Shown here: one piece after another, positions 2,921-25,379 of the stretch
How positions within the stretch are numbered: the stretch's first letter is position 1
Layout: every line of letters starts with the position of its first letter
Notes under the pieces: model-generated
Told to the model about the DNA's origin: nothing
The model's database searches: none
The model's input: the letters and a program-made list of their open reading frames with translations, nothing else
Translations under genes and position numbers: made by a program
NCBI GenBank assembly: GCA_903920315.1
Contig: CAIXLU010000220.1
Coordinates: forward strand, 1 to 50,039
Reading direction: 5' to 3'
Length of the DNA stretch: 50,039 bases
DNA from: an uncultured Oscillochloris sp.
Lineage (GTDB): Bacteria; Chloroflexota; Chloroflexia; Chloroflexales; Chloroflexaceae

Positions 2921-4456
2921 ATGGGAACCCAACTCTCGTCAGAACAGATCAGCCAACTCGCACCGCTACTGGGGAGTCTGGCGCGACTGATCGCTGGGCA
3001 TGGGGAGATTGCCGATGAACAGCTTCAACTGCTCCTTGCTGTCACCGACCTCGATTCACATCCGGTAGCGCTCGTCGAGATCAAGCTTTGGTCACGCCTG
3101 CTGTCCCGAGCGCAGATAGCACCAAGCCCAGCCCTACGACAGACCATCGTTGAGTCGCTCTTGATGTGTGGCCTGCCCGAAGCCAGCGTATTGCTCGCCG
3201 TCGCCACCGTGGTAGGTAGCGGGACAGATGCGATTCAGACCACGGCGGCATCACCCGCCCGCCTTCAGGCAAGTGTGACCCATCTGGATTTTGGCATTTT
3301 GCGTCCTGGACAGGGAGCAGTACTGGATCTGGAAGTGCAGGGCGGCCCTGGACACGTGATCGTCGAGAGCGACCAGATCCAGGTAACGCCACCACAATTT
3401 GGGACCGGATCAACCCGCCTGTGGGTGGAACTGCGCCCACTGACAAGCGGATTGATCTGGACAACGATCAAACTGGTGACGGCGGGGGAGACGCGGGAGG
3501 TGCCGGTCACCGCACAGTGGCAGGATGGGGATACGGCCCCGGCGAAACTCCTGCTGAATCCGCTCATCCAGTCGCCCCAACCTAGTGCTGCCACACCGCC
3601 CCCGCAGCAAAATCCACGCCAGCCACAGCCCCTTACCCAGCAACCACCCCCGCCAGCCACAGTCGTACCCCAACCCGCTAGGCAGTTGATGCTGGAGGTG
3701 CCGGTCGTGCCGATCATGCCACCAGCATCGGTACTGGTGCCACCACCAGCGCGTTTCAGCACATGGATGTTCTTGCTGATTCCCTTGCTGATCATCCTTG
3801 TCGTGGGAAACTTCCTGATCAACGGGATGATTCAACAAGCGCGTCAGGCACAGGAGGAGAGTCAGATGGCGACAGCAATGGTACATCAGGCTACGGCTGA
3901 CGCTCAAGCCGTGACCAGGACGGCTAGTGAGCGCCAAACGACTCTTACAGTCGCCGCCACAACCGCAACAGAATTAGCCCAATTGACCGAGACCGCCCTC
4001 GCCCAAGCCGCAACCGAGACCGCTCTCACCCAAGCCGCAACCGAGACCGCCCTCGCCCAATTGACCGAGACCGCCCAAGCTGCAATCGAGACTGCCCTCG
4101 CCCAAGCTGCAATCGAGACCGCCCTCGCCCAAGCCGCAACCGAGACCGCCCTCGCCCACACCGCAGTCGAGGCTACCACGGTAGCAAGTGAACATCCCAC
4201 TGTTATTATCACGACATTCAGCACTGTACTCCCAAATGGCGGGCATCTGTACAGGTTGCCAAGCCGTGATCCAGGCATGGCACTTGGCCTTATCTGGCCA
4301 GGTGACGAGGTTCTGTGTTTGGGAGAAGAGTTTGAAAATGGTAACGGCAGGTGGATATACGTCCGAGTTGTAAAGGCGTCTCTTGATCGTGGGAGTGGAG
4401 GCGTGCCAGAAGGCACAGAGGGTTATGCACGGGCAACCCTCATCTCTACGCCCTAA
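2921..4456 (+). CDS. Single-pass membrane protein with Pro-rich, repeat and SH3-like regions
   Basis: A 511-residue protein. The start at 2921 is preferred over an upstream GTG because of the GAGAGGGA ribosome-binding site. Layout: a cytosolic helical and beta-rich N-terminal half to about residue 210, a Pro/Gln-rich linker (about 215-280), one hydrophobic helix (FLLIPLLIILVVGNFLI, about residues 287-303), a coiled-coil-like Ala/Thr/Glu repeat (about 345-415; repeats of ETALAQAAT) and a C-terminal beta domain resembling bacterial SH3 folds (YRLPSRDPG, GDEVLCLG, GRWIYVRVV). It converges on the kinase gene and overlaps its end by 4 bases. Its place beside kinase, PP2C and VWA genes suggests a membrane component of the same signalling system, but its binding partner is unknown. 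Confidence 0.75.
   Translation: MGTQLSSEQISQLAPLLGSLARLIAGHGEIADEQLQLLLAVTDLDSHPVALVEIKLWSRLLSRAQIAPSPALRQTIVESLLMCGLPEASVLLAVATVVGSGTDAIQTTAASPARLQASVTHLDFGILRPGQGAVLDLEVQGGPGHVIVESDQIQVTPPQFGTGSTRLWVELRPLTSGLIWTTIKLVTAGETREVPVTAQWQDGDTAPAKLLLNPLIQSPQPSAATPPPQQNPRQPQPLTQQPPPPATVVPQPARQLMLEVPVVPIMPPASVLVPPPARFSTWMFLLIPLLIILVVGNFLINGMIQQARQAQEESQMATAMVHQATADAQAVTRTASERQTTLTVAATTATELAQLTETALAQAATETALTQAATETALAQLTETAQAAIETALAQAAIETALAQAATETALAHTAVEATTVASEHPTVIITTFSTVLPNGGHLYRLPSRDPGMALGLIWPGDEVLCLGEEFENGNGRWIYVRVVKASLDRGSGGVPEGTEGYARATLISTP
3973..4165. repeat. Tandem Ala/Thr/Glu-coding repeats
   Basis: Degenerate tandem units of 24-30 bases (core GAGACCGCCCTCGCCCAA) encode repeats such as ETALAQAA inside the membrane protein at 2921-4456. 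Units differ by a few substitutions (GCAACC against GCAATC), so the repeat is in frame and evolving. Unit count may vary between strains. Confidence 0.75.
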
Positions 4457-6957
4457 CCTGCATGCTTCAGAAACGCCCACACCCACAGCAGCGCGACAAC
4501 ACAGACACTAAGGATGGCCCACTTCAGCACCTTACGGGTGTTTGCACCAAGCGGAGCCAACCCCGACACCATCTGCGTCAGCGCGAACCCGGTAATGACG
4601 CTGCTGATCGCCCCGGCAAACACCATCCCCTCTACAGCAGTGCTGAAAGCCCACGCCAACGCCCACCCCACTACGCTTGCCAGCACCCACTGACCGGCGT
4701 TGCCGATCTGCCGCCGCAGGCCCAGCCATTGCGTAAAACCAAGGCCCAAACCAATAATGGCTCCTCGTACTGCACTCAAGAGCAGCGCTTGGCTTGTGCG
4801 TGGCAGATTGTAGTTATACATCAGATGCTGCAGTTCATCACCCCATTGCAACTCAGCGCTGTTGGCGGCAAACAGGCCCACCACCAACCCAATGGCACTC
4901 GCTGCGATCCACCACTTGGCTGGTTGGAGATGGCGGCGCAGGCTTACCCACTGCGTCAGCCCAAGCACACTGCCCAACGCGGCCCAACTTGCCCCGAAGG
5001 GCAGCACGCTCGTATGCGGGAGTGGGATACCTATGAGAACAAAGAGACACGAGAACCTGTCTAGGTCTGCGGAGGTAATGGTGGGAAGTGAGTTGGTTAA
5101 AAAGAAGTTGCCCTCGCCGTAACCGTGGGTGATAAAGGAAACGAGACTACTCCCGGTCACTAATCCCACCCCCCAGCCCACTGCACCCGCCAATAACCAC
5201 CATGTCCAGAGTACTAGCGCGGTGAACCGGGAGACCGTGGGGCGTGTCTGCGCCGTGATGGGCTGGAGCAACAGTAGTGGCAGTGCAATGCCGGTGAGTA
5301 GGAGGTAGGAGAGCAGTTGTACTGGCATGAAATTGGAGGGTAGATTCTGCTGACTTAGCCACAACCCGATACCGCCGAAAATTGCATTTACCGCAATCCA
5401 CCAACCCGCCCGCCGTACACTGCGCTGCAACACCAGCCATTGTGCTGTACCTATCACTAAAAAGCTGATGACCCAGGGTAGCCCAGCACCTAGCATCCAG
5501 CCTGTCGCCGTTGCGGGCACCCACCAACCCGCGTCACGGATGACAGGGCGACGACGCAAAACCAACCACTGACCGACGCCGATCACTATACCGAGGATTC
5601 CACGTTCAATAGAGCATGCCAGAACAAGAGGCAACCAATATATATGCGAATCGGGTGGGAAAATAGTTCTTAAGTTTTTAGCCCAGATCATACTCACCAC
5701 CGTCGCCACCATCCACAGGCTCATCAGCTTCCAGTCGAACTGAGCCAGTGCTGCACGTGTACGTGCCAGTGAGGAGGGTGGGGCTGGGGACACAAATGGC
5801 GGTCTAGGCTGCGGAATCTGCACGTGCTGGGGAAGTCTCCCGCCGCCTCCAGGTGGAAGCACCTGTGGCCCCGCCGTACTCGCACGCTGGCCGACGAGTG
5901 GTAATGGAGGCAACGCCGTCTGGGGCTTTAGGACGACCGTTGTGCCGGTTGCGGCCTTTGGTGCTACCTGTCGGGATGCCACCGCACACCAGGGGCAGTC
6001 GCGCTGGTGCTGCCCGTAATAGTGGGTCTGGTTGCGCCGACACTGCACCAGCGCTTTGTTCGCCGTCGTAAGCGCCTGCTCCCACTCGGCGGGGTTAGGG
6101 CGGCGATACGGGTTATGGTGGCCCTCCTCGAAGCAGCGCCGCATGAGGTCGGCCACGGCGGGGTGCAGCATATCAAAGGCGACTTCCGGCGGCGGCTGAA
6201 CTTTGGGTGAAGGTGAACGGCCATGAGGGAACAATCCCTGCGCGATCTTCTCCCTTACTTCGGTAAGCGGTGGCTCACTACCGACCCAACGTGCCCGAAA
6301 GGGGTGATTGCCCTCCATCAACAGTTGAAAAATCAGCACCGCCAACCCAAAATAGTCATGCTCAACGGTGCGTGTCACGGTTTTCAGGTTCTTGCCCTGA
6401 AGTTCTGGGGGGGTATACTCTGGTTTTCCCACCGGGCAAGGGTAGTGCTGCACCTGAAATGAGTCGGTGTCAATTATCGTAATTAGCGCGGTGCGAAAGA
6501 CCAAAATATTGCTCTCGTTGAGGTCGCCGATCACATAGCGTCGCGTATGGATGGCATTCACCGTCAGCGCCAAATTGATGGCCGTACGGTGGAGGTAATG
6601 CCAGGGAAAGATACCAAAGGCGTGCGCCCGCTCAGTGGGGTTGTAGGCTCCTAGCAGAATTTTGGCATCCTTCACCGCTGGCATGACATATCCAGCGAAA
6701 CTGCCTCCACTAGCATAGAGTCGCTCACGGGGCCAAGCAATCGAGATATGGGGTGGGTTCATGCTCTGGCAGGGGTCAACCGGCGGGTTTGCGACCATCA
6801 AACCCAACTTCCGGTCGTGTTCGCTCGTCGGCGTATGGTAGATTTTCGCCACCAGATCGCTGCGCCCCTGGATGGCAAAAACCTCCGCCTCGCCGCCGCC
6901 GCCAATCCGATTGCCAGTCTGCACCGTCACCCCACGCGAATCACGGTAGGTCGGCAT
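4453..6957 (-). CDS. Protein kinase of the TerY-P type with multi-pass membrane tail
   Basis: An 834-residue protein. Residues 1-310 form a protein-kinase fold: glycine loop about 18-27 (IGGGGEAEVF), Lys38 (VAKIY), catalytic loop D145-N150 (GDLNESN) and a DTD metal motif around 161-163 in place of DFG. A Cys cluster (CRRNQTHYYGQHQRDCPWC pattern) after the kinase probably binds zinc. A Pro-rich linker leads to about 10 hydrophobic segments carrying at least four copies of a motif QWLxLRR...A.WW. YegI-like kinases of this kind belong with PP2C and VWA proteins in the TerY-P triad. The start overlaps the PP2C stop by 17 bases, so the two are co-transcribed. Predicted inner-membrane serine/threonine kinase; substrate unknown. 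Confidence 0.85.
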   Translation of the reverse strand: MPTYRDSRGVTVQTGNRIGGGGEAEVFAIQGRSDLVAKIYHTPTSEHDRKLGLMVANPPVDPCQSMNPPHISIAWPRERLYASGGSFAGYVMPAVKDAKILLGAYNPTERAHAFGIFPWHYLHRTAINLALTVNAIHTRRYVIGDLNESNILVFRTALITIIDTDSFQVQHYPCPVGKPEYTPPELQGKNLKTVTRTVEHDYFGLAVLIFQLLMEGNHPFRARWVGSEPPLTEVREKIAQGLFPHGRSPSPKVQPPPEVAFDMLHPAVADLMRRCFEEGHHNPYRRPNPAEWEQALTTANKALVQCRRNQTHYYGQHQRDCPWCAVASRQVAPKAATGTTVVLKPQTALPPLPLVGQRASTAGPQVLPPGGGGRLPQHVQIPQPRPPFVSPAPPSSLARTRAALAQFDWKLMSLWMVATVVSMIWAKNLRTIFPPDSHIYWLPLVLACSIERGILGIVIGVGQWLVLRRRPVIRDAGWWVPATATGWMLGAGLPWVISFLVIGTAQWLVLQRSVRRAGWWIAVNAIFGGIGLWLSQQNLPSNFMPVQLLSYLLLTGIALPLLLLQPITAQTRPTVSRFTALVLWTWWLLAGAVGWGVGLVTGSSLVSFITHGYGEGNFFLTNSLPTITSADLDRFSCLFVLIGIPLPHTSVLPFGASWAALGSVLGLTQWVSLRRHLQPAKWWIAASAIGLVVGLFAANSAELQWGDELQHLMYNYNLPRTSQALLLSAVRGAIIGLGLGFTQWLGLRRQIGNAGQWVLASVVGWALAWAFSTAVEGMVFAGAISSVITGFALTQMVSGLAPLGANTRKVLKWAILSVCVVALLWVWAFLKHAG

Positions 6958-7774
6958 GGCTTTGCTCTTCGGTTGTTGACGTGGCTAGTTCCGTAGGCGT
7001 AACTGGCGCGGCGACGGATCGGGGACGCGCCGCGATGACGAGGGTCTTATCGTCCTCGGTGCGGCTGCTCACACGCTCCGAGGTGAGGAAGGCGACGAGT
7101 TGTGTCTCAGCCGTTGCTTGGTCAGTGAAATCAGAGGCAAACGCAAAGAGCGGATCAAAGAAGCGCGGGTAGGGTTCGAGTTCCGGCAACGCGAGGGCAA
7201 GGCGTAACAATCCGTCGGTGGTGAGGGCAATGGCCTGAATTGGCCCCGTATATACCGCAAGCTCCAGGTGATCGAGCGCGTGTGGCAGGAAATAGGTGGT
7301 GTTCACATATTCACCGCGTTGCGGGCGCACAGCGGTGAAGAGCCTCCCATCGGCAGATTGGACGACCGCGCACCCGTCGCCGAGGTGCCCCAGCACCAGC
7401 CACGCCTCCGTCAATACGGCAACGGTAAGCGTGGTGGCGAAGAGCCGAGGGGAAACCTGCGCGGTCGCCGCCAGTTCGTTCAGTGCCGTATGTGCGGTGG
7501 CAAAGGCACTTGTCATCACCGCCCGCCAAGCCGCTTCATCGGCGGGCGATTGCGCATCAAGGGCGGTTGCGAGCGTGTCCAGGGCTTGCTCAACCACGCA
7601 GCGCGACCCTTCCTGCGAACGTGCCGCCGAACCTGCCCCGTCAGCTACAGCAAGCAGCACCGTGCCATCAGACATGATTCGGGAAAGTTGCGCATCCTGA
7701 CAAGGCAAATCAGCCTCCAAATGTGAAACTCCCTGCGCCGCTGCGCCCACGACCCGCCATGTCAACGTCTGCAT
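6941..7774 (-). CDS. PP2C-family protein phosphatase (TerY-P type)
   Basis: A 277-residue cytosolic PP2C fold. Metal-binding motifs are all visible: VADGAGSA near residue 46, HLGDGCAV, LTTDGLLRLA and a C-terminal EDDKTLVI. The ATG at 7774 is chosen over a GTG at 7780 because it sits at better distance from the AGGAAG ribosome-binding sequence. Its 3' end overlaps the kinase start, so phosphatase and kinase are translationally coupled. Within TerY-P systems the phosphatase is thought to reverse phosphorylation by the partner kinase. A hairpin terminator candidate at 7798-7825 lies between this gene and the upstream VWA gene. Confidence 0.9.
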   Translation of the reverse strand: MQTLTWRVVGAAAQGVSHLEADLPCQDAQLSRIMSDGTVLLAVADGAGSAARSQEGSRCVVEQALDTLATALDAQSPADEAAWRAVMTSAFATAHTALNELAATAQVSPRLFATTLTVAVLTEAWLVLGHLGDGCAVVQSADGRLFTAVRPQRGEYVNTTYFLPHALDHLELAVYTGPIQAIALTTDGLLRLALALPELEPYPRFFDPLFAFASDFTDQATAETQLVAFLTSERVSSRTEDDKTLVIAARPRSVAAPVTPTELATSTTEEQSHADLP

Positions 7775-7797
7775 GTACACTTCTTCCTCTCAAATGT

Positions 7798-7825
7798 GTA
7801 GAGACGCAAAAGCTTGCGTCTCTAC
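7798..7825. terminator. Perfect 12-bp hairpin, possible terminator or dispersed repeat
   Basis: GTAGAGACGCAA at 7798-7809 pairs perfectly with 7814-7825 across a 4-base loop, between the VWA gene (ending 7873) and the PP2C gene. No clear U-tract follows. The sequence resembles the short GAGACGCAA palindromes dispersed in some phototroph genomes, so it may be a repeat rather than a terminator. Confidence 0.45.
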
Positions 7826-7872
7826 CGTGAGCTGCGATCTAAAATCCACAATCTAAAATCTGCGACCTTGGC

Positions 7873-8589
7873 TCAAATTCCAATCTGCGCCCAACCAACG
7901 GCGGGCAGGGCCACCTGCTGTCCGGGTTGCGACTGGGACACCGCCGAAAGGCTGTTCGAGAGCCACTGGAAGAGATCGCGGAAGGCCAACCCCTTTAATT
8001 TAAGCGGTTGGTTACGCTTGCAGAAGCGGGCCAGTGTCTGCATATCAGCGCCTTCCACCCCAACGGCGAAGAAGTTCAGCCCCTTGCGTCCCTCTTCCTC
8101 TTGCACCTGTACCGCCGCCGTCTCCCAACCGGAATCGGTTGGCGCACCATCGGTGATCATAAAGACCCAGGGGCGAAAATAGTCAATTTCCTTCTGCTGA
8201 TAGATCTGCTTACGTTCACGCAACAACGGCAACATCTGGCGCACTGCGCTACCCATCGGCGTATCGCCCCGCGCCGTCAGGGGTGGCGCAGTAAACTGAT
8301 CCATCGTCACAAAGGCTTGGTGGGCGTCAAATGGCAGGCTAGTCGCACCACCACCACGCCCACTCACCACCGTCGGCGTGTCACCAAAGGTAATGACGGC
8401 GACCTCGACGCGCAGGGAAGCCAACCGATCCGCCTTGAGGGTCTGCTCAAAGACACGTAAGCCTTCATTTAACTCAGCGATGGGCGAACCTGACATCGAG
8501 CGGGAAATGTCGAGCAGCAGAATGACCGGGCATCGCGGTTCGGGATTGTTGCCGGGGAATTCAACCTGTTCGAGTGGATTGTAGGTCAT
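7873..8589 (-). CDS. TerY-like VWA-domain protein with intact MIDAS
   Basis: A 238-residue single-domain von Willebrand A protein. The metal-ion-dependent adhesion site is complete: D27-x-S29-x-S31 (LLDISRSMSG), a Thr in ARGDTPMGSAV and an Asp in MITDGAPTDSGW. The N-terminal PEPRCPVILLLD and the spacing match TerY proteins of the TerY-P triad. The start at 8589 follows an AAGAGAG ribosome-binding sequence. It lies upstream of PP2C and kinase genes on the same strand and is the likely metal-binding adaptor of that set. A paralogue with a lost MIDAS lies just upstream. Confidence 0.9.
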   Translation of the reverse strand: MTYNPLEQVEFPGNNPEPRCPVILLLDISRSMSGSPIAELNEGLRVFEQTLKADRLASLRVEVAVITFGDTPTVVSGRGGGATSLPFDAHQAFVTMDQFTAPPLTARGDTPMGSAVRQMLPLLRERKQIYQQKEIDYFRPWVFMITDGAPTDSGWETAAVQVQEEEGRKGLNFFAVGVEGADMQTLARFCKRNQPLKLKGLAFRDLFQWLSNSLSAVSQSQPGQQVALPAVGWAQIGI

Positions 8590-8682
8590 AAATTTCTCTC
8601 TTCCCTTGATCAATACGCATGGGTTCGTAGCTACGTTACCATGTGCGCCAATGCGACATAAACTGCTACGGCAATCTCACAT

Positions 8683-9432
8683 CTAAAGAGGCGTAAGGCC
8701 GGTTGCTAACCGGAGACAACCCGGCAAGGTCAGCGTTGCCGAAGTATCCCAACTAGTCGAAACCGCCGCCAGACTTGCCGAAATCCAGCGGAACAGGTCA
8801 CTGAAGGCCAGTCGCTCAAGAGCCAACGGCATATCCGTAAAGCAGGCCAGCGCCTGCATATCTGCGCCGCTCACTCCAATCGCATAAAACAGAACCCCTT
8901 GGTGATTCAGCGTCGCACGGATCTGGGCCGCCGCAGTCTCCCAACCGGGATCACTTGGCTGCCCACCACTGATCAACAGCATCCATGGCTTGAAATAATC
9001 AACTCCATTTTGCAGATAAATTACCTGACGGTCGCGGAGTAATCGCAGGCCCAACGCAACAGCGGGACCAATGCAACTCGTTCCACCCGCCTTCAGCGTC
9101 GGCGGGCGAAACGCTGCGGCGGTGACAAAGGCCCGGTGCGCCGGTTCGGCGTTAGGCGGCACCTCGTCGCGTTGCGTTTTCCATATCTGTACCCGCTCGC
9201 CAAAGGTGATCAGCGCGAGTTCAACGCGAAGCGATGCCACACTATCGCCCTTGAGCGCTTGGTCAAAGGCGTGGAGTCCGGCATTCAGTTCCGCCATCGG
9301 CTGTCCCGCCATCGTCTGTGCGGTATCGAGCAGCAGCACCACCGGACAGCGCGGTTCAGGGTTGTCCATAAACTCAATCAAATCAATAGGTTGTCTAGCG
9401 TTGGTGGATTCAGCGTTGAGATCAAATGACAT
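8683..9432 (-). CDS. TerY-like VWA paralogue with degenerate MIDAS
   Basis: A 249-residue VWA protein clearly paralogous to the one at 7873-8589 (shared PEPRCPV.LLLD, MAELN.GL..F.Q.LK, W..AA.Q). The MIDAS residues have decayed: D36-T-A-Q-T40 replaces DxSxS, and ISGGQPSD replaces ITDGAPTD. Metal binding is therefore unlikely, yet the frame is intact and the ribosome-binding site GAGGAGAAG is excellent, which argues for selection on a non-catalytic scaffold or decoy role. The two VWA proteins may form a heterodimer. Transcription probably starts in the 9433-9700 region. Confidence 0.85.
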   Translation of the reverse strand: MSFDLNAESTNARQPIDLIEFMDNPEPRCPVVLLLDTAQTMAGQPMAELNAGLHAFDQALKGDSVASLRVELALITFGERVQIWKTQRDEVPPNAEPAHRAFVTAAAFRPPTLKAGGTSCIGPAVALGLRLLRDRQVIYLQNGVDYFKPWMLLISGGQPSDPGWETAAAQIRATLNHQGVLFYAIGVSGADMQALACFTDMPLALERLAFSDLFRWISASLAAVSTSWDTSATLTLPGCLRLATGLTPL

Positions 9433-9512
9433 GGCTTCTCCTCGTAAAGACTATAACCAATAGTAGGAGTTCTCGGCGGTAATAGTTTTAGCTTAGTCAA
9501 AATATCATTTTA

Positions 9513-9640: not shown

Positions 9641-9670
9641 TTAATCCTATTGTATAACCGCCTTAATTGT

Positions 9671-9703: not shown

Positions 9704-9781
9704 AAGTGCTACAAATGATTTTCGAGGCTCGTTATACATGTGACATCTGTGTCAAGCAGTGTGCCCAGGAGTACCACTACT

Positions 9782-9994
9782 ATGGAAGCGCATCCCCCCC
9801 TTCCCAATGTCCTGACTGTCAACGAGATCGCTAGCTACATGCGCGTCAGCAAAACAACGATCTGCCGGTGGTGTAGCAGCGGTAAACTCCGCGCATTTCG
9901 GATTGGTCGTTCGTGGCGTGTGCAGCGCACCGATCTTGAGGCTCACATCCAGAACACATTTGTATGTCATTCTGAACCAACCATAGCAACTTAG
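9782..9994 (+). CDS. Excisionase-family helix-turn-helix DNA-binding protein
   Basis: A 70-residue protein with a MerR/excisionase-type winged HTH (HTH_17 family): LTVNEIASYMRVSKTTICRW, then GKLRAFRIGRSWRV. This is the standard helix-turn-helix followed by a short beta wing. The ATG at 9782 is preferred over a GTG at 9740 because an AGGAG lies 10 bases upstream and the extra residues are Ser/Thr-rich. It stands 85 bases before the FHA operon and just after a palindrome, so it may be the local repressor or activator. A role as phage excisionase is less likely, with no adjacent integrase. Confidence 0.8.
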   Translation: MEAHPPLPNVLTVNEIASYMRVSKTTICRWCSSGKLRAFRIGRSWRVQRTDLEAHIQNTFVCHSEPTIAT

Positions 9995-10078
9995 ATTAGA
10001 TAATGCTTTCCGTCGGCAGTTATGTAAATATGGTCGCTGCCAGATACGTCAATACATAGCTGCGTAGGAGAGGATCTG

Positions 10079-11999: not shown

Positions 12000-14296
12000 A
12001 CCGTTATCTTCGCCGTCTCCTGCTGCACGTTACACTGCTCGCCGAGATAATGAGTATTGTCATTGTCGGCAGCACTGTATCGGCTGCCCCGAAACCGATC
12101 TTACCTACCCAGCGCATCGATCAGGCACGCAGTCTCGATCTTGTACTGCTTGTGGACGAGTCAGGAAGTGCTTGGAACTACACGGATCCCGATTCTGGAT
12201 CGGACTTGCCACCCTTCCGTATCCGTGCCGCCCAACTGCTTGTTAATATGCTCGCCGTTGAGCAGGGTGTGTCCAGACCCAGCCATCGTGTCGCAGTCTA
12301 TTTTTTCGGATCGAGCGTCGCCGAAGTTGTCCCTCTCCAGCCGGTTACCGGAAATGCCAATACCATCACCAATCAGATCTATGCCGAACACTACCGCTTG
12401 GGTAATTTACTCTGGACCGATACGGCAACGGCATTTGAAACCGCTAGAACCGTGTTGAACAGCATCCCCGCAGATCCAACCCGGCGGTCGGTCGTGGTGA
12501 TGATCACCGATGGGAAACCCGAGACGGAGAGCGCCAACACACAGTCGGGAGACCAGACGCCAGCAGGCCAAGCACTGCCAGGGTATCTCCAGCGTAACAC
12601 AGCGGCGATCCAGTCACTCAGCGGAGTGCCGAATAGTGCCGGCATCTGCCCCGCGATCACTGATGCGCGACCTGTGTATCTGCTGGCTGTTAATATCTCC
12701 TCCACTGACACGACCCCCGTACCAACAGAGGAGTTTTCTGGTTATTGGTCACAGTCCAATCTCGTGGGCAGCCAGTATAGACCTGTGGTCAACTTCGCCG
12801 CCCTCAGTGGACAGATTTCATTGTTGGTAGCCGAGTTGCTCTGTGCCGTCGGCGAGGCTCCCCGTCCCCCGGTGTCTCTGCCAACCCATTATCTACTTGA
12901 TGTACGCGAGAACTATGCCAGCGTGATGTTTACCATTATGAAGTCGGATAGTAATACACATACCACGATTACTCCTCCCGGCGGGCAGCCGCTACAATCG
13001 GACACGCCCGGTGTACAGATTGAAACCGCCTCAACGAACGAGGTCTGGAGCCTCAAACGCAATGAGTTTGGCAGCCAATGGGCAGGTATTTGGGATGTAA
13101 AGGTTGAGGGTGCAGGATGGGTGCAGTTTGACTTTCTCAAGTTCAGTGACAACTATACAGTGGCTCTACTACAGCCTCAGGGAGATCTGCATCCGGCGGG
13201 AAAACCACTTAATGTGGCGGCGTGGATTGTTGATGCGACGGGCCAACGCTATACCCAGCCAGTTCAGAACTTCAAGCTAACTGTTGGTCTGACCACTGAT
13301 GATGGCACCCTGACCCAGAATATGCTCTCCATGCAGCCAGACGTTAATGGCAACTACCAGGCCCGCATCGAAGAGCCGAAGCCCGGTCGTTACACCCTCA
13401 ACCTACGGGCCGATCTGGACAGTCGCCAGAACGCGATGCTCTCCCCAGCCCGCACTATCGCCGTAGAGAAACTGCCCTGGATGGTACTGCACGAGCCTGC
13501 CGATGGAATGATCCTAGAGGCCGGACACCCCTTTACAGTGACCGTCAGCGCCCAGGCTATGGGTACTGGCGATGATACGCCGAAACCGATTGACGGTATT
13601 CAGGCCCGCCGTACCAGCATTTCAGCAGAACTAGCACCGGTCGGGTTGAGCACACTCGGGGCACCGACACCCCTGGAGGCGCAATCGGGTGGTGCAGGCG
13701 TAACACACACGGGTGTGCTGCCTGGATCATCCACCCCCGGCAACTACAATCTTGTGCTGCGCCTCACGTACCCGTTCGCCGACCGTACCTACGACGAGGT
13801 AATCACGCGTACTTTGCGCTTCCAGACTCCTGTCGTATCGCCCACAGGTATCCTAACCACCACCGTAACGCCTCCGCCCCCTTGCCCCCCAGAATGCCCT
13901 CCGCCCCCTTGCCCCCCAGAATGTTCTCCGAAGCCCTGGTGGCTCATCCTGTTGGGTGCCCTCGCCTTGATTGGCCTTGCTGGATGGTGGTGGTGGTGGA
14001 TGAGCTATAACAAGCCTCTGAGCGGGTATCTCGACACGCCGGGGGGCCAACAGAATCTGCGTGGGCGGCGCTTCCCCTACGTCCTGTTTGATGCGAATGG
14101 GATGCCACAGGGTCGCCTCATCTTTTCGCGTATTCCCGCCACTGGCCATACACTGGCTTGGGTCGCACGCCTGAAGCGCGCTGCCCCTCCCCTTGTAATT
14201 CAAGGCCAAGTAAAAGTACAGGGTGACGTATCGAATCCGCTCCAGAGAGGCGACACGATTGTGTTTGACGGACAGACAACAACCTATTACTCGTAA
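11996..14296 (+). CDS. Exported VWA-domain protein with C-terminal anchor
   Basis: A 766-residue protein starting within ATGA and preceded by GGAGG. An N-terminal signal peptide (LLLHVTLLAEIMSIVIVG) is followed by a VWA domain (about 45-300) with MIDAS residues DESGS and VVMITDGKPE. Beta-sandwich repeats fill the middle. A Pro/Cys linker with a 27-base tandem duplication (PPPPCPPEC twice, bases about 13873-13930) precedes a transmembrane helix (WWLILLGALALIGLAGWWWW). The cytosolic tail of about 100 residues looks like a small beta domain (VFDGQTTTYYS end). This is a cell-surface sensor or adhesion protein linked to the tubulin-like genes downstream. Confidence 0.85.
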   Translation: MNRYLRRLLLHVTLLAEIMSIVIVGSTVSAAPKPILPTQRIDQARSLDLVLLVDESGSAWNYTDPDSGSDLPPFRIRAAQLLVNMLAVEQGVSRPSHRVAVYFFGSSVAEVVPLQPVTGNANTITNQIYAEHYRLGNLLWTDTATAFETARTVLNSIPADPTRRSVVVMITDGKPETESANTQSGDQTPAGQALPGYLQRNTAAIQSLSGVPNSAGICPAITDARPVYLLAVNISSTDTTPVPTEEFSGYWSQSNLVGSQYRPVVNFAALSGQISLLVAELLCAVGEAPRPPVSLPTHYLLDVRENYASVMFTIMKSDSNTHTTITPPGGQPLQSDTPGVQIETASTNEVWSLKRNEFGSQWAGIWDVKVEGAGWVQFDFLKFSDNYTVALLQPQGDLHPAGKPLNVAAWIVDATGQRYTQPVQNFKLTVGLTTDDGTLTQNMLSMQPDVNGNYQARIEEPKPGRYTLNLRADLDSRQNAMLSPARTIAVEKLPWMVLHEPADGMILEAGHPFTVTVSAQAMGTGDDTPKPIDGIQARRTSISAELAPVGLSTLGAPTPLEAQSGGAGVTHTGVLPGSSTPGNYNLVLRLTYPFADRTYDEVITRTLRFQTPVVSPTGILTTTVTPPPPCPPECPPPPCPPECSPKPWWLILLGALALIGLAGWWWWWMSYNKPLSGYLDTPGGQQNLRGRRFPYVLFDANGMPQGRLIFSRIPATGHTLAWVARLKRAAPPLVIQGQVKVQGDVSNPLQRGDTIVFDGQTTTYYS

Positions 14297-14306
14297 GGAA
14301 CACCCC

Positions 14307-17072
14307 ATGACAGTACTGAATTCACCCCCGCCGGTTCCTGATCAGCCGAACCGCCCGCGCCAGATACGGCCAACCCTGATCGTAGGGCTGGGCGGCACCG
14401 GGAAAGAGGTTTTGGTGCGGGTGAAAGCGCGCTTCCTTGAAACCTTTGGCCCCGAGATCTTCCAATTGATCAAACTGGTGGCCCTCGACACCGACCCCAG
14501 GAGACTCGCGGTGCCAGCGACCAGCGGAGCCACGACTAGCCTTAATCACAACACCGAGTTCCTCAATATTGGCAATGTGCCTACTGTGGGGATACTTCAG
14601 GATCTTGATACCTCTTATCCTCACATCAAAGTGTGGTTACCCTCCAACTTACCTAGAGAGGCGATCACTGATGGGGCAAAGATGATCCGACCCCTTGGGC
14701 GCTTGGCCTTCTTCTTCCACTTCCGCAGGATCCACGACTTTCTCCAGACGCAGATTAACGCATTGGCGAATATCCATAACCCTATCCAAGACCCACAGAT
14801 AATGCGAGAAGATGTAGCCGTGATGAACACCAATATTATCTTGGTTTCAAGTATCTGTGGTGGCACTGGCAGTGGCATTTTTCTCGACACGGCCTACTTG
14901 CTTCGCCATCTCTGCGGCCAAAATATTAGCTTGACAGGCATCCTTGCTCTGCCCCGAGTCTTCGCAATGGTTGCCGACGATCGGATCAAGGCGAATGCCT
15001 TCGCTGCGCTACGTGAGCTCGACCAGTTCACTGGGGGGACGATTAACCAAGCCTTCGATGTCGAGTACATAGATGGGAATCGGGTTCGCAATGGTGCCAG
15101 ACCGTTTGATTTCTGCTACCTGGTGGATGGCAAGAACGAACAGTGGCGCACACTGACCGGCATGAATCAGTTTGCCCCCCTGATAGCCGAGAGTATTTTT
15201 ATGCAGGTTAGCTCCCAAATGGGCAATGAGATGGTCTCGTCCCGCGATAATGTCTTCTTCAGGAACGTCCCTGACAAAGACGGTATATTGCATATGGCCG
15301 CCTTCAGCGGGTTGGGTATGGCCAGTCTACATTTTCCGGCGGCGGCGATTATTGATGTCTGTGGTCGCCGCTTTGCGGCCCGTCTGATTACTCAGGGGTT
15401 GTTAGCCAAACAGCCGAGCGAGGAACTGATCAATGGCGAGCTTGATAAGCTCCAAAACCTGCTGCAACTCCACGCCGATCAGATGCTTGCCGCAGTGGCC
15501 CGCGACGACCAGGGGAAGCCGCTCGCGCTTAACCTTGGGAGGGCAGGTCTCAGCCTGGCACTGCTCGAAACTTTGAATAAGAACGAGTTGCTAGTCCAGA
15601 TCGCGGGTCGGGCCCAGCGTCTCGACGCCGAAGTGTTAAACGACAGCCTGCGCAAGCAGATCGACCGCAACTTCAAGGCCATGGAAGTCAGCTTGAGTAC
15701 CCAACTCGACAAATCACTCGCCCTCTTGCTCGACAAAGACCTCACCGGCGGTCTGCTGCTGATCAAGCCCCTGCTTGATGCGCTACGCGGTAACCTCAGC
15801 CAGAGCCTGGCCCAACTCGACCTCCAGCGTAAAGATCAGCAGGTTTCGCTGGATCACAGCGAGCAACCGATCATCGCTGCTCGCCAGCACCTCGACCAAG
15901 TGTTGAATGCCTTTATTGATCCAGGTGGCCGCCGTCGCAAAGCTGCGATCAACGCACTGATCGACGCACACCGCCAGCAGTTTCAGCAGCACTTTGAGTT
16001 GATGCAGAAGGACTGCGTGATGAGTGTCTTAGCTACACTGATCAGAGCGGTTGAGCAGCACCTGCGCGACAATGAAACCCTCATTGACCGTCTGCGAGTC
16101 GCTGCCGAAAAGTTTGATCGCGAGGATCAGGAGAAGGTTCGCCAGTGGGATACGCTCCAGGATGGGTTCAAGCAGGTCATCACCAATGTCAACGACATCG
16201 AAACTTTCTACCAGGAGTATGTGCGAGATGTTGGTCAGCAGTTGCGTGTGCTGGTGGAGCCAAAAACCGCAGGGCCGATCCACACCTGGACTGATCGATA
16301 CCCCTCTTACGAGCAAATAAGAACAAAAGTACTTGACTTTGCCTGCAGCGTATTCGCGCCCATTGCCAGACGTCGGCTCGAAGATGAAGTAATGAGTAAG
16401 CGCGAACAAGTCGAACCGAACGCACGGCTCGAAACGATCATCGGCGCGGCAACACCGTTCTGGAGCGTGTTGATGACCCGTATGCCGAACGGAGGCAACA
16501 ATATCATCGATCTCAACGTGATCGGAGTCGAGGATATGGAGCGCACTGAATACAGGCATCGCTTGATCGAACGTGGCACGGCGGGAACCACCACGCTCGA
16601 TCCGCACCGGATCACAGTACTACGCACCAAGCACGGTGTACCGATTTATGCACTCGACGAGTACGACAACTACCAGGAAGTCTACAACCGCTATATAGCG
16701 AAAGGGGAAGTGCCACTGCACATCATGCACATACCCGACGAGAAGAAGCCCCGCTGCACCTTTGCCCTCGCCCAAGCCCTCGGGTTGATCGTCGAGAAAG
16801 GCGTAGAATATGAGGTGCAATCTGTCGGCGTTGCGCCGATCCCGCTGGGCAAGGGGCTGCCGGCGGCGGTGCTACAGTTCATTGGCGATGCCCACTTGGT
16901 CGTTGACGTCGAAAAGTTGGCAGAGGCAAAGATCGCGAGCATTGGCAAGATCTCCGCCAAGCAGATGATCGACACCTACACAGCCCTGCCGCTCCCGAAC
17001 GACACGGCCCGCCAGACGCTCCAGCAGACACTCAACAAGTTGGTTCTTGAATATCGCCAAAGTTACCTGTAA
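14307..17072 (+). CDS. Tubulin-like GTPase family protein (Tubulin_2)
   Basis: A 921-residue protein. The N-terminal 380 residues show the tubulin/FtsZ nucleotide-binding layout: PTLIVGLGGTGKEVLVRVK near residue 22 (T1 loop), ALDTDPRRL (T2/T3) and the signature CGGTGSGIFLD at residues 184-194 (T4 loop, GGTGSG at 185-190). This matches Pfam Tubulin_2, large tubulin-like proteins of bacteria with no assigned polymer role. The C-terminal half is predicted helical with coiled-coil stretches. The ATG at 14307 follows AAGGA, 10 bases after the VWA stop. It heads the cytosolic part of the operon and probably forms a nucleotide-dependent scaffold beneath the membrane VWA and FHA proteins. GTPase activity is not proven. 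Confidence 0.9.
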   Translation: MTVLNSPPPVPDQPNRPRQIRPTLIVGLGGTGKEVLVRVKARFLETFGPEIFQLIKLVALDTDPRRLAVPATSGATTSLNHNTEFLNIGNVPTVGILQDLDTSYPHIKVWLPSNLPREAITDGAKMIRPLGRLAFFFHFRRIHDFLQTQINALANIHNPIQDPQIMREDVAVMNTNIILVSSICGGTGSGIFLDTAYLLRHLCGQNISLTGILALPRVFAMVADDRIKANAFAALRELDQFTGGTINQAFDVEYIDGNRVRNGARPFDFCYLVDGKNEQWRTLTGMNQFAPLIAESIFMQVSSQMGNEMVSSRDNVFFRNVPDKDGILHMAAFSGLGMASLHFPAAAIIDVCGRRFAARLITQGLLAKQPSEELINGELDKLQNLLQLHADQMLAAVARDDQGKPLALNLGRAGLSLALLETLNKNELLVQIAGRAQRLDAEVLNDSLRKQIDRNFKAMEVSLSTQLDKSLALLLDKDLTGGLLLIKPLLDALRGNLSQSLAQLDLQRKDQQVSLDHSEQPIIAARQHLDQVLNAFIDPGGRRRKAAINALIDAHRQQFQQHFELMQKDCVMSVLATLIRAVEQHLRDNETLIDRLRVAAEKFDREDQEKVRQWDTLQDGFKQVITNVNDIETFYQEYVRDVGQQLRVLVEPKTAGPIHTWTDRYPSYEQIRTKVLDFACSVFAPIARRRLEDEVMSKREQVEPNARLETIIGAATPFWSVLMTRMPNGGNNIIDLNVIGVEDMERTEYRHRLIERGTAGTTTLDPHRITVLRTKHGVPIYALDEYDNYQEVYNRYIAKGEVPLHIMHIPDEKKPRCTFALAQALGLIVEKGVEYEVQSVGVAPIPLGKGLPAAVLQFIGDAHLVVDVEKLAEAKIASIGKISAKQMIDTYTALPLPNDTARQTLQQTLNKLVLEYRQSYL

Positions 17073-17162
17073 CTACCCGCGCCGGTCTGGTGGCGATCCG
17101 GCTTCTGCGATAAGACAGGTCTAACCGCGACCCGCCACACCTGTAGGCTCGGGGGAATTGCG

Positions 17163-19949
17163 ATGAATGTACGACGCGCCCTAATCATTGGGCTTGGGGC
17201 TGCTTCGCTTACGGCACTACGCCAACTGGGCGAGCAACTCACCGACCATGGACTCGAACCTTTACCCGTGGTGTGCCGCGTGCTGATCGCCCGCAGTGGC
17301 GATCAGCACAGCCTGCCGCCTGGGGTGCTCCTGATCGAAATTCCGCCCGGCGGGCAGGTGCAGACGAGTCCCGAACTGCGCGACGCCATCGCACCGCTGA
17401 TCGCCGAGTTGCTCCAGGGTGAACATATCTGGGCGCTACAGCAGCGCGGCGTACATGTGCAGGCCCAGCTTCCAATCGAACTGATCATCGTCGGGAACCT
17501 TGCCGATGAGCTGGTTGCCCAATCCATTCTTGATCTGGCGCGACTCGTCTACCCGCTGATTGATGAACACCAGGCTCCAGCCCAATCGCTCGCCGCAGCG
17601 CTGTTTCTCGTCATCCCCTGGCTGAGTCAGATGGGACAAGCAAAAGAGACGCAGCAGCAGATGATGTATGACCAGCTCATCGCACTCAATGCCTATCTCC
17701 GGATCGGGCAGGACGGAGGACTCTTCCTAGAGGCATCCGAGCGTGCGGTCAGGCATGTCTACCTGATCGAGCAGGCGAATATGGCCGCACAGGCGGTACC
17801 CAATCACGACAGCCTATTCTGCATGATTGGTGGCTGGCTCTTGTCCTACCTGACCGATGGCTTGCCGCTGAACGATGCCAACGTTGCCAACGGCAATGCA
17901 CCGGCGGCCTTTCGCTCCCTCGGTTACGCCAGCATCTCTGTCCCGCTGCGCCCGCTGGCGGCAATCCTCAGTGATTGGTTCATCACCAGGGCCTTCAGTG
18001 ACTACCTACTGGCCACCCCGGGGACTGCCCACAAACCCGGCCAGGATCCAAAGCCGCAGCAGGATGAGATTAACGCAGAGTTACAAGACCAGGCTCGCAA
18101 CAAGTGGATCGAGGCTGGGCTGACCCATGACCGACTTAAGAGCGATCTGTTGACCCACATTGACCCGGCGCTTAGCGCACTCAGGCCCGACACGTATCGC
18201 AACACGCCCTTTCATCACTACCGTGAAATCGAGCAACGCCTGATCGGCGACTATAGCCGCATACTCGACAAGGAGATGCCAAGGCGTAGCGAGCGCTACG
18301 CCCAGAACCATCGCGCCATCCTTAAGCGCGCCGAGGTCAGCCTGGATAAGATCCGTACCCACTACTTCGACACTTACGAACTGGGGGTGCGCGCACCAGT
18401 GCGTACTGCTATCGTTATCTTCGACCGCATCGCGACCGAAATGAAGCGGCGTGGCGAGGAGCAACGGGAGGAAATCGTCCGACTTGAGAAAGAGATCAAC
18501 GCGGGCGAGCGCACGATCATTGCTGAACGTGAACGATTCTGGGACACCGCTCAGAACCTCGGCAGACCGCCGTTCATCTTCCCCACTATCGCGATGCTGA
18601 CAATCCTGGTTGTAGTCTCCTATCTTGCCTGGATCATGTGGACCCACCTGGGACAGCCAACGCTGACCGTTGCCTATCTGATAAGCATACTAGCGACCAT
18701 GGCTGCGGGGTTCATCATTACACTCCGACGAGTCGAGCGCCAGAAGTTCCAGATGATTGAGTCCTATGCTGATCGGCTAAAGTTGCTAGTACAGCAGCAC
18801 GAGGCTCGCGCTATGCGCATACTCTACGCTGATCTCATGCACATGACCCAAACATTTCACACCGACATCGAACGCTTCAAACAACACCTTCAGGGGCAAC
18901 TCGCCCGTCCGGTAGACGAGAAACGCGCACCGTCCGCTGTCACCGAGCTATCCGAGTTGGAGCGACAGATAGATCCGCAGTTATTAGAGCAGATGTGTAA
19001 AGTGCCTTGTGCAACGCTAGGAGTCTCGCTCTTGCGGAAGGAGGATCTGGGCACCTGGTACCACGAGATCTTCACTGCTATCGACTGGGATCTCCGCGAC
19101 TTTTTCGCCCGGCAGAAACTGTTGTCGGGATGGTACCACGACTGGGCCTTGTCCGGACACACTCCGCAGCCGACACTAAGAGTCGCCCTCGAACGCTGGG
19201 TACATGAGGAGAATCCCGATAAGCTGCCGCGCCTGTGGCATGAACCGATCAGTCGCTACCTAGGAGCCTATGCACGCCAAGAGCAACAAGGAATCATCGA
19301 GCAGTTATACAAAACCGCGCACATCTACAGCCGTCTGAACATTATCAACCAAGATAGGCTCCCCCAGGTTATCATTCGCATCGGTGAGCAAGATCAGCTC
19401 TATGTCAAGGAACTCTTTCAGGAGATCGGAGGCGACCCGCTATTCTGGGGCGAAACTACCCAGCCATTGCATGTATCCGCACTCTCGGTACTGAACAACC
19501 TGCCGCTTGATGCCTTTCAGATTGGGTGGGATCTCGCTCCTCCCGGCCCTCACGATGCCCGTATCAACACCCGTCTCAGCATCAGTAGTATCGTCGCTCT
19601 TGCCATCGCCACAGGTGTACTGCAATACAACACAAATAGGGACGAGCTTGGCTACAACAGGATCATCCAGATTCACGATCCAACGCAAACCACGGCATTT
19701 ATAAATCTCGGCACTTCATACACAAGTGTTGTAACTCGGCTAGGAATGCCGAGCCAGCGCGAGCATTTCAAAACGATTAGCGACATGCTCGTGGCGAAAC
19801 TTGACAGTCTGACTGCGAATGATCCTCACCACAATGCCCTGTGCCAGATCCTCAACACCTACCTAGGTAGATCCGTCGATTCTGCTGAGCGCCCACCGCT
19901 CACAATCTACCTCAGGGCTCTTCTGGCACGAGCCAACGGCGGCAGCTAA
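17163..19949 (+). CDS. Degenerate tubulin-like membrane paralogue
   Basis: A 928-residue protein with a similar start to the upstream tubulin (ALIIGLGAASLTALRQL against LIVGLGGTGKEVLVRV), but the glycine-rich T1 loop is altered and no GGTGSG motif is found. An N-terminal Rossmann-like region (IELIIVGNLADELVAQSILD, LFLVIPWLSQ) is followed by helical coiled-coil sequence. Two transmembrane helices lie near residues 480-520 (IAMLTILVVVSYLAWIMW and a second hydrophobic stretch), with a long helical C-terminal part. It is probably a nucleotide-binding-dead partner that ties the tubulin-like protein to the membrane. The 90-base gap before it holds no clear terminator, so it remains in the operon. 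It overlaps the kinase start by one base (TAATG). Confidence 0.7.
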   Translation: MNVRRALIIGLGAASLTALRQLGEQLTDHGLEPLPVVCRVLIARSGDQHSLPPGVLLIEIPPGGQVQTSPELRDAIAPLIAELLQGEHIWALQQRGVHVQAQLPIELIIVGNLADELVAQSILDLARLVYPLIDEHQAPAQSLAAALFLVIPWLSQMGQAKETQQQMMYDQLIALNAYLRIGQDGGLFLEASERAVRHVYLIEQANMAAQAVPNHDSLFCMIGGWLLSYLTDGLPLNDANVANGNAPAAFRSLGYASISVPLRPLAAILSDWFITRAFSDYLLATPGTAHKPGQDPKPQQDEINAELQDQARNKWIEAGLTHDRLKSDLLTHIDPALSALRPDTYRNTPFHHYREIEQRLIGDYSRILDKEMPRRSERYAQNHRAILKRAEVSLDKIRTHYFDTYELGVRAPVRTAIVIFDRIATEMKRRGEEQREEIVRLEKEINAGERTIIAERERFWDTAQNLGRPPFIFPTIAMLTILVVVSYLAWIMWTHLGQPTLTVAYLISILATMAAGFIITLRRVERQKFQMIESYADRLKLLVQQHEARAMRILYADLMHMTQTFHTDIERFKQHLQGQLARPVDEKRAPSAVTELSELERQIDPQLLEQMCKVPCATLGVSLLRKEDLGTWYHEIFTAIDWDLRDFFARQKLLSGWYHDWALSGHTPQPTLRVALERWVHEENPDKLPRLWHEPISRYLGAYARQEQQGIIEQLYKTAHIYSRLNIINQDRLPQVIIRIGEQDQLYVKELFQEIGGDPLFWGETTQPLHVSALSVLNNLPLDAFQIGWDLAPPGPHDARINTRLSISSIVALAIATGVLQYNTNRDELGYNRIIQIHDPTQTTAFINLGTSYTSVVTRLGMPSQREHFKTISDMLVAKLDSLTANDPHHNALCQILNTYLGRSVDSAERPPLTIYLRALLARANGGS

Positions 19950-20908
19950 TGCAGCGGGCGGTGGCATCATCAGTAACAGGAGCAGGCAGGCACCTCCAGA
20001 GCCCAATCCGGAGCTATATTATTGCCCGGTTACTTGCTGAAGGTTCTTTTGGGCGGATCTTCCTTGGCGAATGCGATGGCCTCCATGTGGCGATTAAGGA
20101 GACAAAAGAGCCGATTACTGTCGCCTTGATGGACTTCGCTCACGAAGTAGTGGCCCTCCGTAGTCTTACCCACCGTGCGCTACCACAGATGCTCGACTCC
20201 TTCATCGTTGACAACTACGGCTATATCGTGATCGAGTACATTAACGGCATGTCACTTTCTGCCTATGTTGATGCGATTGGTAACGACCTGCCAGAGTCAA
20301 CATTGCTAGACCTAATTGAGCCTGTGGTTGATGCCCTCAACGTGATGCAGCACTGGATGCCGCCCATTTTGCATTACGATATCAAGCCTGATAATATCCA
20401 GATTGATGCAGCAGGCCAGGCATATCTCATTGACTTTGGCTCGATCGGGGTGGGCGGCGCACAGCGCGCTCTAACGAGATCGATCTACTCGCCCCTTGAA
20501 CAACTGGATGGTCGAGTAGTTGATCAGCGCGGACAGCTTTACTCCCTGGGAGCAACCCTCTATGCTGTCTTGACAGGTAGCCTACCCCCATCAGCAAGGC
20601 AGCGCGACCCATGTGGCTCCGATATTGCTCTGCTTCTGACAGCACGACGCCCCGACATCTCCACACGCCTTGCCGCGATCATCGTGCGCTTGATGCACCC
20701 TGACCTGGTCTATCGTTACCAGGGTGTGTCCGAACTCCAGCGCGACATGACCCTGCTTCGTACGGGTACGCCAGCCCTCGCGATCCGACCGCAGAACACG
20801 CAGCTTGTATGGCTCGAAGTCAGCCTGGCGATGGGTGCAGCCATCCTCTGCCTCGTACTCGTGGCATTAGCGCTTGTGATCTGGTTTACAAATAGAGGAT
20901 TGTGTTAG
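19949..20908 (+). CDS. Serine/threonine kinase with C-terminal membrane anchor
   Basis: A 319-residue Hanks-type kinase. Glycine loop EGSFGRIFLG (about 31-40), Lys50 (VAIKE), Glu66 (HEVVALRSL), catalytic loop HYDIKPDN (D144, N149) and DFG (162-164) are all present, so it should be active. The Tyr in HYD makes it a non-RD kinase. A single transmembrane helix near the C-terminus (AILCLVLVALALVIWF) places the kinase domain in the cytosol. It closes the FHA-VWA-tubulin operon; its natural reader would be the FHA protein and its eraser the PP2C protein at 6941-7774. Confidence 0.9.
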   Translation: MQRAVASSVTGAGRHLQSPIRSYIIARLLAEGSFGRIFLGECDGLHVAIKETKEPITVALMDFAHEVVALRSLTHRALPQMLDSFIVDNYGYIVIEYINGMSLSAYVDAIGNDLPESTLLDLIEPVVDALNVMQHWMPPILHYDIKPDNIQIDAAGQAYLIDFGSIGVGGAQRALTRSIYSPLEQLDGRVVDQRGQLYSLGATLYAVLTGSLPPSARQRDPCGSDIALLLTARRPDISTRLAAIIVRLMHPDLVYRYQGVSELQRDMTLLRTGTPALAIRPQNTQLVWLEVSLAMGAAILCLVLVALALVIWFTNRGLC

Positions 20909-25347: not shown

Positions 25348-25379
25348 ACATCCGCCGCCATATGCTCCAGAAGGCCGTT

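Follow-up and report, generated by a model that had tools for sequence, protein, structure and literature searches.

The FtsZl1 (Tubulin_2) family of tubulin-like proteins is known from operons in which its genes stand beside those for membrane or secreted VWA proteins, kinases and lineage-specific membrane proteins, in genomes that also encode ordinary FtsZ, and a role in membrane remodelling has been proposed for it (Makarova and Koonin 2010, PMC2875224). The T6-H7 region and the C-terminal tubulin domain were not found in the family (PMC2875224), and a 2023 study excluded it, noting no FtsZ_C or Tubulin_C domains (PMC9871819); for want of a recognised C-terminal domain, FtsZl1 proteins have not been placed in family trees of the tubulins. 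A reviewer of the 2010 paper also queried how a cytosolic FtsZ-like protein cooperates with VWA proteins at the cell surface (PMC2875224). Among the DO-GTPase/GAP1-N2 systems, a tubulin theme comprises tubulin-domain proteins with coiled coils, encoded by two genes in Firmicutes, and extracellular VWA proteins with membrane helices, while a separate theme comprises a kinase with a zinc ribbon, PP2C and vWA (eLife 2020, PMC7159879). The TerY-P triad, in turn, consists of a TerY-like VWA protein, a PP2C phosphatase and a kinase with a zinc-ribbon-like stretch (PMC11090510, citing Anantharaman 2012 and Gao 2020). Here we analyse positions 2921-20908 of a 50,039-nucleotide stretch of DNA from an uncultured Oscillochloris sp. 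of the Chloroflexota (GCA_903920315.1, contig CAIXLU010000220.1; hereafter the window), in which the two themes, called non-overlapping in PMC7159879, lie side by side.

The window is one whole contig of an assembly of 5.5 Mb in 716 contigs that is 96% complete. Its left module (2921-9432) is a TerY-P triad with a companion gene, A, and its right module (10079-20908) runs from F to K on the plus strand (Table 1). Open reading frame (ORF) listing and Pfam give two kinases, one PP2C, three VWA proteins, one FHA protein and one clear Tubulin_2 protein, I; a second tubulin-like protein, J, is invisible to Pfam and was identified by profile comparison with hhalign and by its predicted fold, which together bear out the gene inventory of the initial annotation. 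From these genes and their relatives we put forward, tentatively and as something short of a probable account, that a membrane tubulin of two subunits occurs in Chloroflexota and some cyanobacteria, pairing a GTP-binding FtsZl1 protein with a G-loop-less partner whose head is borne on a stalk that crosses the membrane twice; that the FtsZl1 core may be complete in the whole family but split by this stalk; and that in the window's lineage an FHA adaptor, together with a kinase and a VWA sensor at the surface, may switch and read the assembly.

The tubulin-like pair

Protein I matches Tubulin_2 (PF13809) at 1.2e-61, with 209.4 bits against a cut-off of 27, and the VWA gene H lies directly upstream of it, as in FtsZl1 operons. 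Its loop reads CGGTGSG where the family has GGGTG(S/T)G, the first G being C in I, and I is predicted to bind GTP. The AlphaFold (AF2) model of I is good (predicted local distance difference test, pLDDT, 82.3) and aligns with CetZ (3zid_B) at Z 28.0 and a root-mean-square deviation (rmsd) of 3.2 over 298 of 342 residues, spread over model residues 20..801; the Z scores are 25.0 for BtubAB and ~23 for FtsZ. Since some 300 aligned residues span positions 20-801, a block of helices must lie inside the predicted tubulin core of I, and the order of strands and helices in the model would place it at about residues 370-730. The predicted core thus resembles those of CetZ, BtubA/B and FtsZ, to which I would add a huge helical insertion.

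J matches no Pfam family, PF13809 included, although its counterpart in locus L018 does match PF13809 (1e-16), and alignments of the J and I families correspond over their whole length (hhalign E 5.5e-55, 796 columns). In place of the ICGGTGSG of I, J has NLADELV, and GLGAAS in J replaces GLGGTG; alignment A2, with its 15 J-type proteins, contains no GGTGSG loop. Hydropathy marks two membrane helices within residues 469-520 (starting at 469 and 500), where helices are predicted at 472-496 and 499-580, and similar mid-protein membrane helices are found in most counterparts. The best structural match of J by VIA-align is CetZ (3zid_A; Z 17.7, rmsd 4.5, 284 residues, on a weak model), and the top Foldseek matches are TubZ (E 2.6e-3, probability 1.00). 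By its predicted fold and its profile relation to I, J is a member of the tubulin superfamily.

The models suggest that the tubulin core of both I and J is complete, with the C-terminal part present and split from the rest by the insertion. An insertion splitting the core would explain why the C-terminal half was missed in the 2010 study and, if true, a split but complete core returns FtsZl1 proteins to the tubulin family trees. Several results weigh against the scaffold model given below, of which the split core is a part. The AlphaFold model of J is weak (pLDDT 55.8, falling below 50 over much of the insertion and in part of the C-terminal domain), and no Foldseek match for J lies under E 1e-3. 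Comparison of alignments A3 or A2 with 11 FtsZ sequences by hhalign recovered short loops only, at a probability under 3%, and hmmsearch of the same alignments in the PDB returned no tubulin. Finally, 18 of 37 Tubulin_2 genes surveyed lack a recognised tubulin-like gene next to them.

A search of genome contigs found no relative with protein I alone and at least 482 with an alignment as query, of which the best 80 were kept. Gene calls in the related loci are crude longest-ORF calls, and the counts depend on these and on contig ends. Among the 37 genes that follow a Tubulin_2 gene in 40 Chloroflexota survey stretches, 19 encode a Tubulin_2-like protein, 17 a protein with mid-protein membrane helices and 24 at least one of the two, and partners similar to J are found repeatedly next door in Chloroflexota and in some cyanobacteria. 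Of the 29 second copies (defined by position together with a Tubulin_2 match or mid-protein membrane helices) in a tree of 67 domains, 27 group together, with a Shimodaira-Hasegawa-like approximate likelihood ratio (SH-aLRT) of 97, and the label of first or second copy changes 3 times on the tree against a shuffled mean of 22. The second copies of L021 and L031 fall outside the main group. In a set of 55 rows, with 12 left out, a single clade of second copies is not rejected (approximately unbiased test, p-AU 0.53). As all second copies sit on long branches, there is a real danger that long-branch attraction has drawn them together; the membrane helices that they share and the lost loop independently support their common origin. 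Fast change on these long branches and the loss of the GTP loop could also mean that J is a stand-alone membrane adaptor that has kept an ancestral fold and neither pairs nor co-assembles with I. We consider this fairly unlikely, given that the two genes stay next to each other, with their order unchanged, in Chloroflexota and in several cyanobacteria and that J is conserved end to end with the I family.

Two loci, L032 and L033, encode giant Tubulin_2 proteins of 3513 and 2263 residues, and genome G023 has two Tubulin_2 matches in one frame of 3518 residues.

The Tubulin_2 operon and its relatives

The relatives of I that rank best in tblastn come from Chloroflexota without exception: L064 (43% across the N-terminal region), L065 (38%) and L066 (36%). 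L065 has a near twin in L018 (95% in Tubulin_2). The order in L018 is DnaJ-FHA, PP2C, kinase, four-helix FHA protein, two-FHA protein, VWA-transmembrane (TM)-FHA protein, Tubulin_2 and membrane Tubulin_2-like protein, and both L018 and L065 hold PP2C, a kinase, several FHA domains, VWA, Tubulin_2 and the second Tubulin_2-like protein. In L064 two FHA domains lie where the contig begins, accompanied by VWA, both tubulins and, downstream, several kinases, while in the stretches examined L066 and L067 have no FHA or kinase match. Within the operon, F is 25-26% identical over ~270 residues to the position-equivalent proteins of L018 and L065, and H has homologues in both (1.6e-40 and 1.1e-36) that end in an FHA domain, although no FHA was detected in the cytosolic tail of H itself.

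Beyond these closest relatives the picture changes. VWA lies directly upstream of Tubulin_2 in 27 of 36 survey stretches and in 9 of 11 named Chloroflexota loci, so that this part of the neighbourhood proposed for a survey in the initial annotation is common; FHA, its other part, is rare. The 40 Chloroflexota survey stretches yield FHA once, PP2C once and a kinase six times, and the 11 named loci FHA twice, PP2C once and a kinase twice. With FHA in 1 of 40 and 2 of 11, a phospho-reader is not a fixed part of such operons, which counts against a phosphorylation-controlled scaffold, as does the lack of a significant sequence match between G and the membrane protein with two FHA domains at its position in L018 and L065. 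Phospho-signalling genes accompany the window's closest relatives and are not general.

Overall, we lean towards a scaffold reading, in which the right module would be a tubulin scaffold anchored in the membrane, controlled by phosphorylation and coupled to a VWA sensor at the surface. F to K would then form a membrane-bound FtsZl1 complex in which, as modelled, a long helical insertion interrupts the tubulin core of I and of J alike. The insertion of J is predicted to cross the membrane twice and would serve as a membrane stalk for its tubulin head, and GTP-bound I would assemble on or with the J heads, a GTPase with a non-binding partner. H would sense something outside through its VWA domain in a metal-dependent way, K would phosphorylate a cytosolic tail, be it that of H, of G or of the tubulins, and F would bind the phosphorylated site through its FHA domain, such that assembly under the membrane would be switched by phosphorylation. 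An opposing phosphatase would have to come from elsewhere, perhaps C. The output would probably be the organisation of a cell-surface or motility structure. A membrane-anchored tubulin partner of this kind would be a direct answer to the question of how a cytosolic FtsZ-like protein works with surface VWA proteins. A role of the right module in cell division is unlikely, since ordinary FtsZ is present elsewhere in the window's genome (two loci), as it is in each of the 17 genomes searched.

Two described systems are in keeping with a role at the surface or in motility. Synechocystis Sll0445 shares the Tubulin_2 domain with I; disruption of sll0445 impairs phototaxis, and Sll0445 is found in association with proteins of pilus assembly (PMC9880817). 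The partners described for Sll0445-Sll0447 are FtsA-like, DivIC-like, pilus and photosystem proteins, with FHA and PP2C not reported in the parts of that source consulted (PMC9880817). In Sulfolobus, ArnA (FHA) and ArnB (VWA) form a complex promoted by phosphorylation; the likeness of ArnA-ArnB-ArnC/D, with FHA and VWA proteins phosphorylated by kinases and joined in a complex, is a functional analogy only, and unlike what we propose for the window it acts on archaellum gene expression, with no tubulin reported in the portion of the source covered (PMC13286277). A methanogen operon that combines VWA genes with a tubulin-like gene, annotated as CetZ, goes up under motion (PMC12008871).

The initial annotation held the biology of this locus to be undescribed, which does not stand: operons of VWA, Tubulin_2 and kinase genes appear in PMC2875224, and related themes in PMC7159879. 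Like FtsZl1 operons, the right module has Tubulin_2, a membrane VWA, a kinase and membrane proteins, in a genome with ordinary FtsZ; FHA, PP2C and a loop-less membrane second tubulin are not mentioned in the parts of PMC2875224 covered. The passages covered in the literature, supplements and subscription papers lying outside the search, describe no membrane-anchored loop-less tubulin partner, no split core and no FHA or PP2C in a Tubulin_2 operon. The core of the operon is of a known kind, while its arrangement with FHA and its pseudo-GTPase tubulin partner in the membrane, with the shape predicted for that partner, look new; given that scope, we claim no priority.

Table 1. Features at 2921-20908, by position in the window
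Feature	Position	Strand	Evidence
A, membrane protein, cytosolic N-terminal part, distal C-terminal domain (SH3-like by eye)	2921..4456	+	no Pfam match
B, kinase of the TerY-P type, with a CPWC stretch resembling a zinc ribbon and several membrane helices after it	4453..6957	-	Pkinase 2.6e-6
C, PP2C phosphatase	6941..7780	-	PP2C_2 2.5e-47
D, TerY-like VWA, metal-ion-dependent adhesion site (MIDAS) DxSxS intact (DISRS)	7873..8589	-	VWA 9.2e-8
E, second TerY-like VWA, first MIDAS motif degenerate (DTAQT)	8683..9432	-	VWA 4.1e-5
HTH_17 excisionase-type DNA-binding protein	9740..9994	+	HTH_17 5.3e-16, between the two operons
F, four membrane helices, CxxC zinc-ribbon-like stretch, cytosolic FHA	10079..10990	+	FHA 9.3e-7
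G, membrane protein, extracellular part, cytosolic tail	10974..11999	+	no Pfam match
H, N-terminal signal/TM, extracellular VWA (DESGS), TM near residue 640, ~95-residue cytosolic tail	11996..14296	+	VWA_2 1.8e-9
I, Tubulin_2/FtsZl1 protein, GTP loops intact, predicted tubulin core split by long helical insertion	14307..17072	+	PF13809, AF2 model
GGTGSG predicted GTP-binding (T4) loop of I	14859..14876	+	invariant in 14 sequences, alignment A3
J, second, membrane-anchored predicted tubulin-like protein without GTP loop	17163..19949	+	hhalign, AF2, CetZ match
T4-equivalent stretch of J, NLADELV replacing GGTGSG loop	17496..17516	+	alignments of I, J and the L018 counterpart of J
Two predicted transmembrane helices of J within helical insertion	18567..18722	+	hydropathy and predicted helices
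K, Ser/Thr kinase, one C-terminal membrane helix	19949..20908	+	Pkinase 1e-21; hydropathy

The TerY-P triad and its relation to the tubulin operon

The left module forms a minus-strand operon in the order E, D, C and B, with A converging on B, and is divergent from the right module across 9433-10078; the HTH_17 gene in this region is a candidate regulator. The genes had been described as tightly overlapping within each operon, which is so for C/B and F/G (17 bp each), G/H (4 bp) and J/K (1 bp), but there are gaps of 10 bp between H and I, 90 bp between I and J, and ~92-93 bp between E and D and between D and C.

A TerY-like VWA gene adjoins PP2C and kinase genes here, as in TerY-P triads, whose combination of VWA, PP2C and kinase B to E share; a zinc-ribbon-like stretch in the kinase would be a further likeness. 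D aligns with nine other TerY-like proteins (alignment A4) and E is 47% identical to D; type III-A CoCoNuTs also have a duplicated VWA with one intact and one degenerate copy, like D and E (PMC11090510). B scores 27.5 bits as a kinase, below the Pfam cut-off of 31.7, yet matches the kinases of TerY-P triads in L159-L163 and L165-L167 (phmmer ~1e-13 to 8e-66). Its active-site residues were identified by eye, and its kinase domain is followed by a Cys/His-containing stretch ending in CPWC for which there is no Pfam zinc-ribbon match. Homologues of A adjoin TerY-P genes in L166 (61% over 213 residues, 80% over 79) and, as two copies, in L167 (54-57%). Unlike the triad as described in PMC11090510, kinase B extends into several membrane helices, a companion gene is present and no restriction system is attached. 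A to E are a TerY-P phospho-switch with its own kinase and phosphatase, probably independent of the right module.

The initial annotation had read both halves as one phosphorylation-controlled complex. What survives is the part that concerns the right module, where a Tubulin_2 operon carries FHA, VWA and kinase genes and does so again in the closest relatives; the joining of the TerY-P triad to it does not. Homologues of D occur in 10 of 61 related genomes. Seven of nine D-homologue stretches have VWA, PP2C and kinase genes, one has VWA and kinase with an ORF between and one is cut by a contig end; all nine lack Tubulin_2. Conversely, no homologue of B, C, D or E (E 1e-3) was found in 127 other Tubulin_2 loci (the 40 survey stretches, the 11 named Chloroflexota loci and 76 others, two of which are re-fetched stretches). 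In a draw of 400 Chloroflexota genomes, 46 have Tubulin_2 (43 over the cut-off) and 23 a TerY-like VWA (E up to 1e-20); both halves are present in 12, and on one contig in the window only. Adjacency of the halves is thus rare, as the test named in the initial annotation would have it for unconnected halves, yet, taken raw, the halves co-occur more often than chance would give (Tubulin_2 in 12 of the 23 genomes with TerY and in 34 of the 377 without, Fisher 7e-7). Two bacterial families carry this excess: without the f17/f43 genomes listed and the window genome, 2 of 12 co-occur (p = 0.27).

A single integrated system, in which the TerY-P triad phosphorylates and dephosphorylates the tubulin complex, might still be argued from the divergent arrangement around a common intergenic region with its HTH_17 gene, from the raw co-occurrence, and from G318 and its near twin (L018 and L065), which have a kinase and PP2C within the tubulin operon. 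The PP2C and kinase of L018, however, are seemingly of another subfamily than C and B (C at E 4e-4, B no match), the left-hand companion A accompanies TerY-P genes elsewhere, and both the survey of 127 loci and the dependence of the co-occurrence on two families speak against it; we regard this system as quite improbable. The genomes are fragmented, and distant linkage of the halves on one chromosome may occur. With no other shared locus and co-occurrence carried by two families, the halves are best treated as independent until tested, and we favour, if only mildly, separate inheritance of two modules that adjoin where their promoters diverge.

Defence and the genomic setting

Operons of tubulin and vWA genes have been filed under conflict systems (eLife 2020, PMC7159879), and the right module might accordingly belong with the conflict systems of DO-GTPase/GAP1-N2 type, its tubulin-like assembly beneath the membrane serving to defend the cell against invaders. 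Consistent with this are the type III CRISPR genes, integrase and Tn3 transposase to the right of the operon, the patchy distribution of Tubulin_2 (8 of 61 relatives, 46 of 400 Chloroflexota), and Thermaceae plasmids that carry vWA, Tubulin_2 and an unknown gene beside BrxL, helicase and methyltransferase genes. DO-GTPase models PF19993/PF19975 have no match in A-K, however, both being in the library (L069 matched), and the window differs from those systems in having an FHA gene. There is no GAP1-type Pfam match in A-K, the presence of a GAP1 model in the library being unchecked. The neighbours of Tubulin_2 appear mostly housekeeping. PADLOC was run on 60 of 110 proteins drawn from 210 neighbours and 60 of 110 drawn from 193 controls. 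Among the first 25 families of each, the strong matches listed for the neighbours were CRISPR genes and one mad3, whereas the controls gave BrxA, CARF, mad3 and kinase-like matches, with no visible excess among neighbours in this small test. PADLOC found no system in A-E, H, I or J, with weak kinase/PP2C matches to B and C only and generic kinase matches to K, and no BrxL was found among A-K or the flanking window genes scanned, although it is present in L013 and L014. The Synechocystis mutant phenotype, moreover, concerns motility and photosynthesis (PMC9880817). We therefore think a defence function unlikely, and retain the membrane scaffold as our working view of the right module.

Some related loci are of interest in themselves. 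In L069 a DO-GTPase gene (14245-15324) directly follows a Tubulin_2 pair, linking such operons to DO-GTPase systems. On plasmids of Thermus oshimai (L013, 16828-18363) and Allomeiothermus silvanus (L014, 17980-19467), vWA, Tubulin_2 and an unknown gene are followed by BrxL and then by helicase/nuclease or methyltransferase genes, possibly a BREX-related tubulin system; tubulin and FtsZ do not occur in the main text of a BREX survey (PMC12839542). In L168 (2-3567), from the same genome as the closest Tubulin_2 relative L064 but on a different contig, TerY-P-like PP2C and kinase genes adjoin a Card1-like nuclease gene.

The G+C content is 0.55-0.59 in 2.5-22.5 kb, against 0.60-0.64 for most of the window to its right, and the window at 2.6-43.9 kb has no match in 60 kb of a 65 kb same-genus contig that carries the right flank. 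A simple island insertion was considered and rejected, the flanking matches being non-colinear in order and orientation, so that no empty site is claimed. Phage or viral origin was likewise set aside: viral contigs yield no relative, and phages a single unannotated 'Bacteriophage sp.' record. On the left, 2176-2571 holds a C-terminal fragment of an FGE-sulfatase-like gene, and 2340-2622 is 78% identical to two sites in a same-genus genome. On the right, at 21204-24200 and 24327-25286, a Tn3-family transposase DDE domain and a DUF4158 part lie in two adjoining ORFs beside a phage-type integrase, followed by a Cas6-like gene (25362-26360) and, at 26762-37558, type III CRISPR genes that include several RAMPs, one of them fused to a trypsin-like domain, a Cas10/Cmr2 palm domain and Cas_APE2256.

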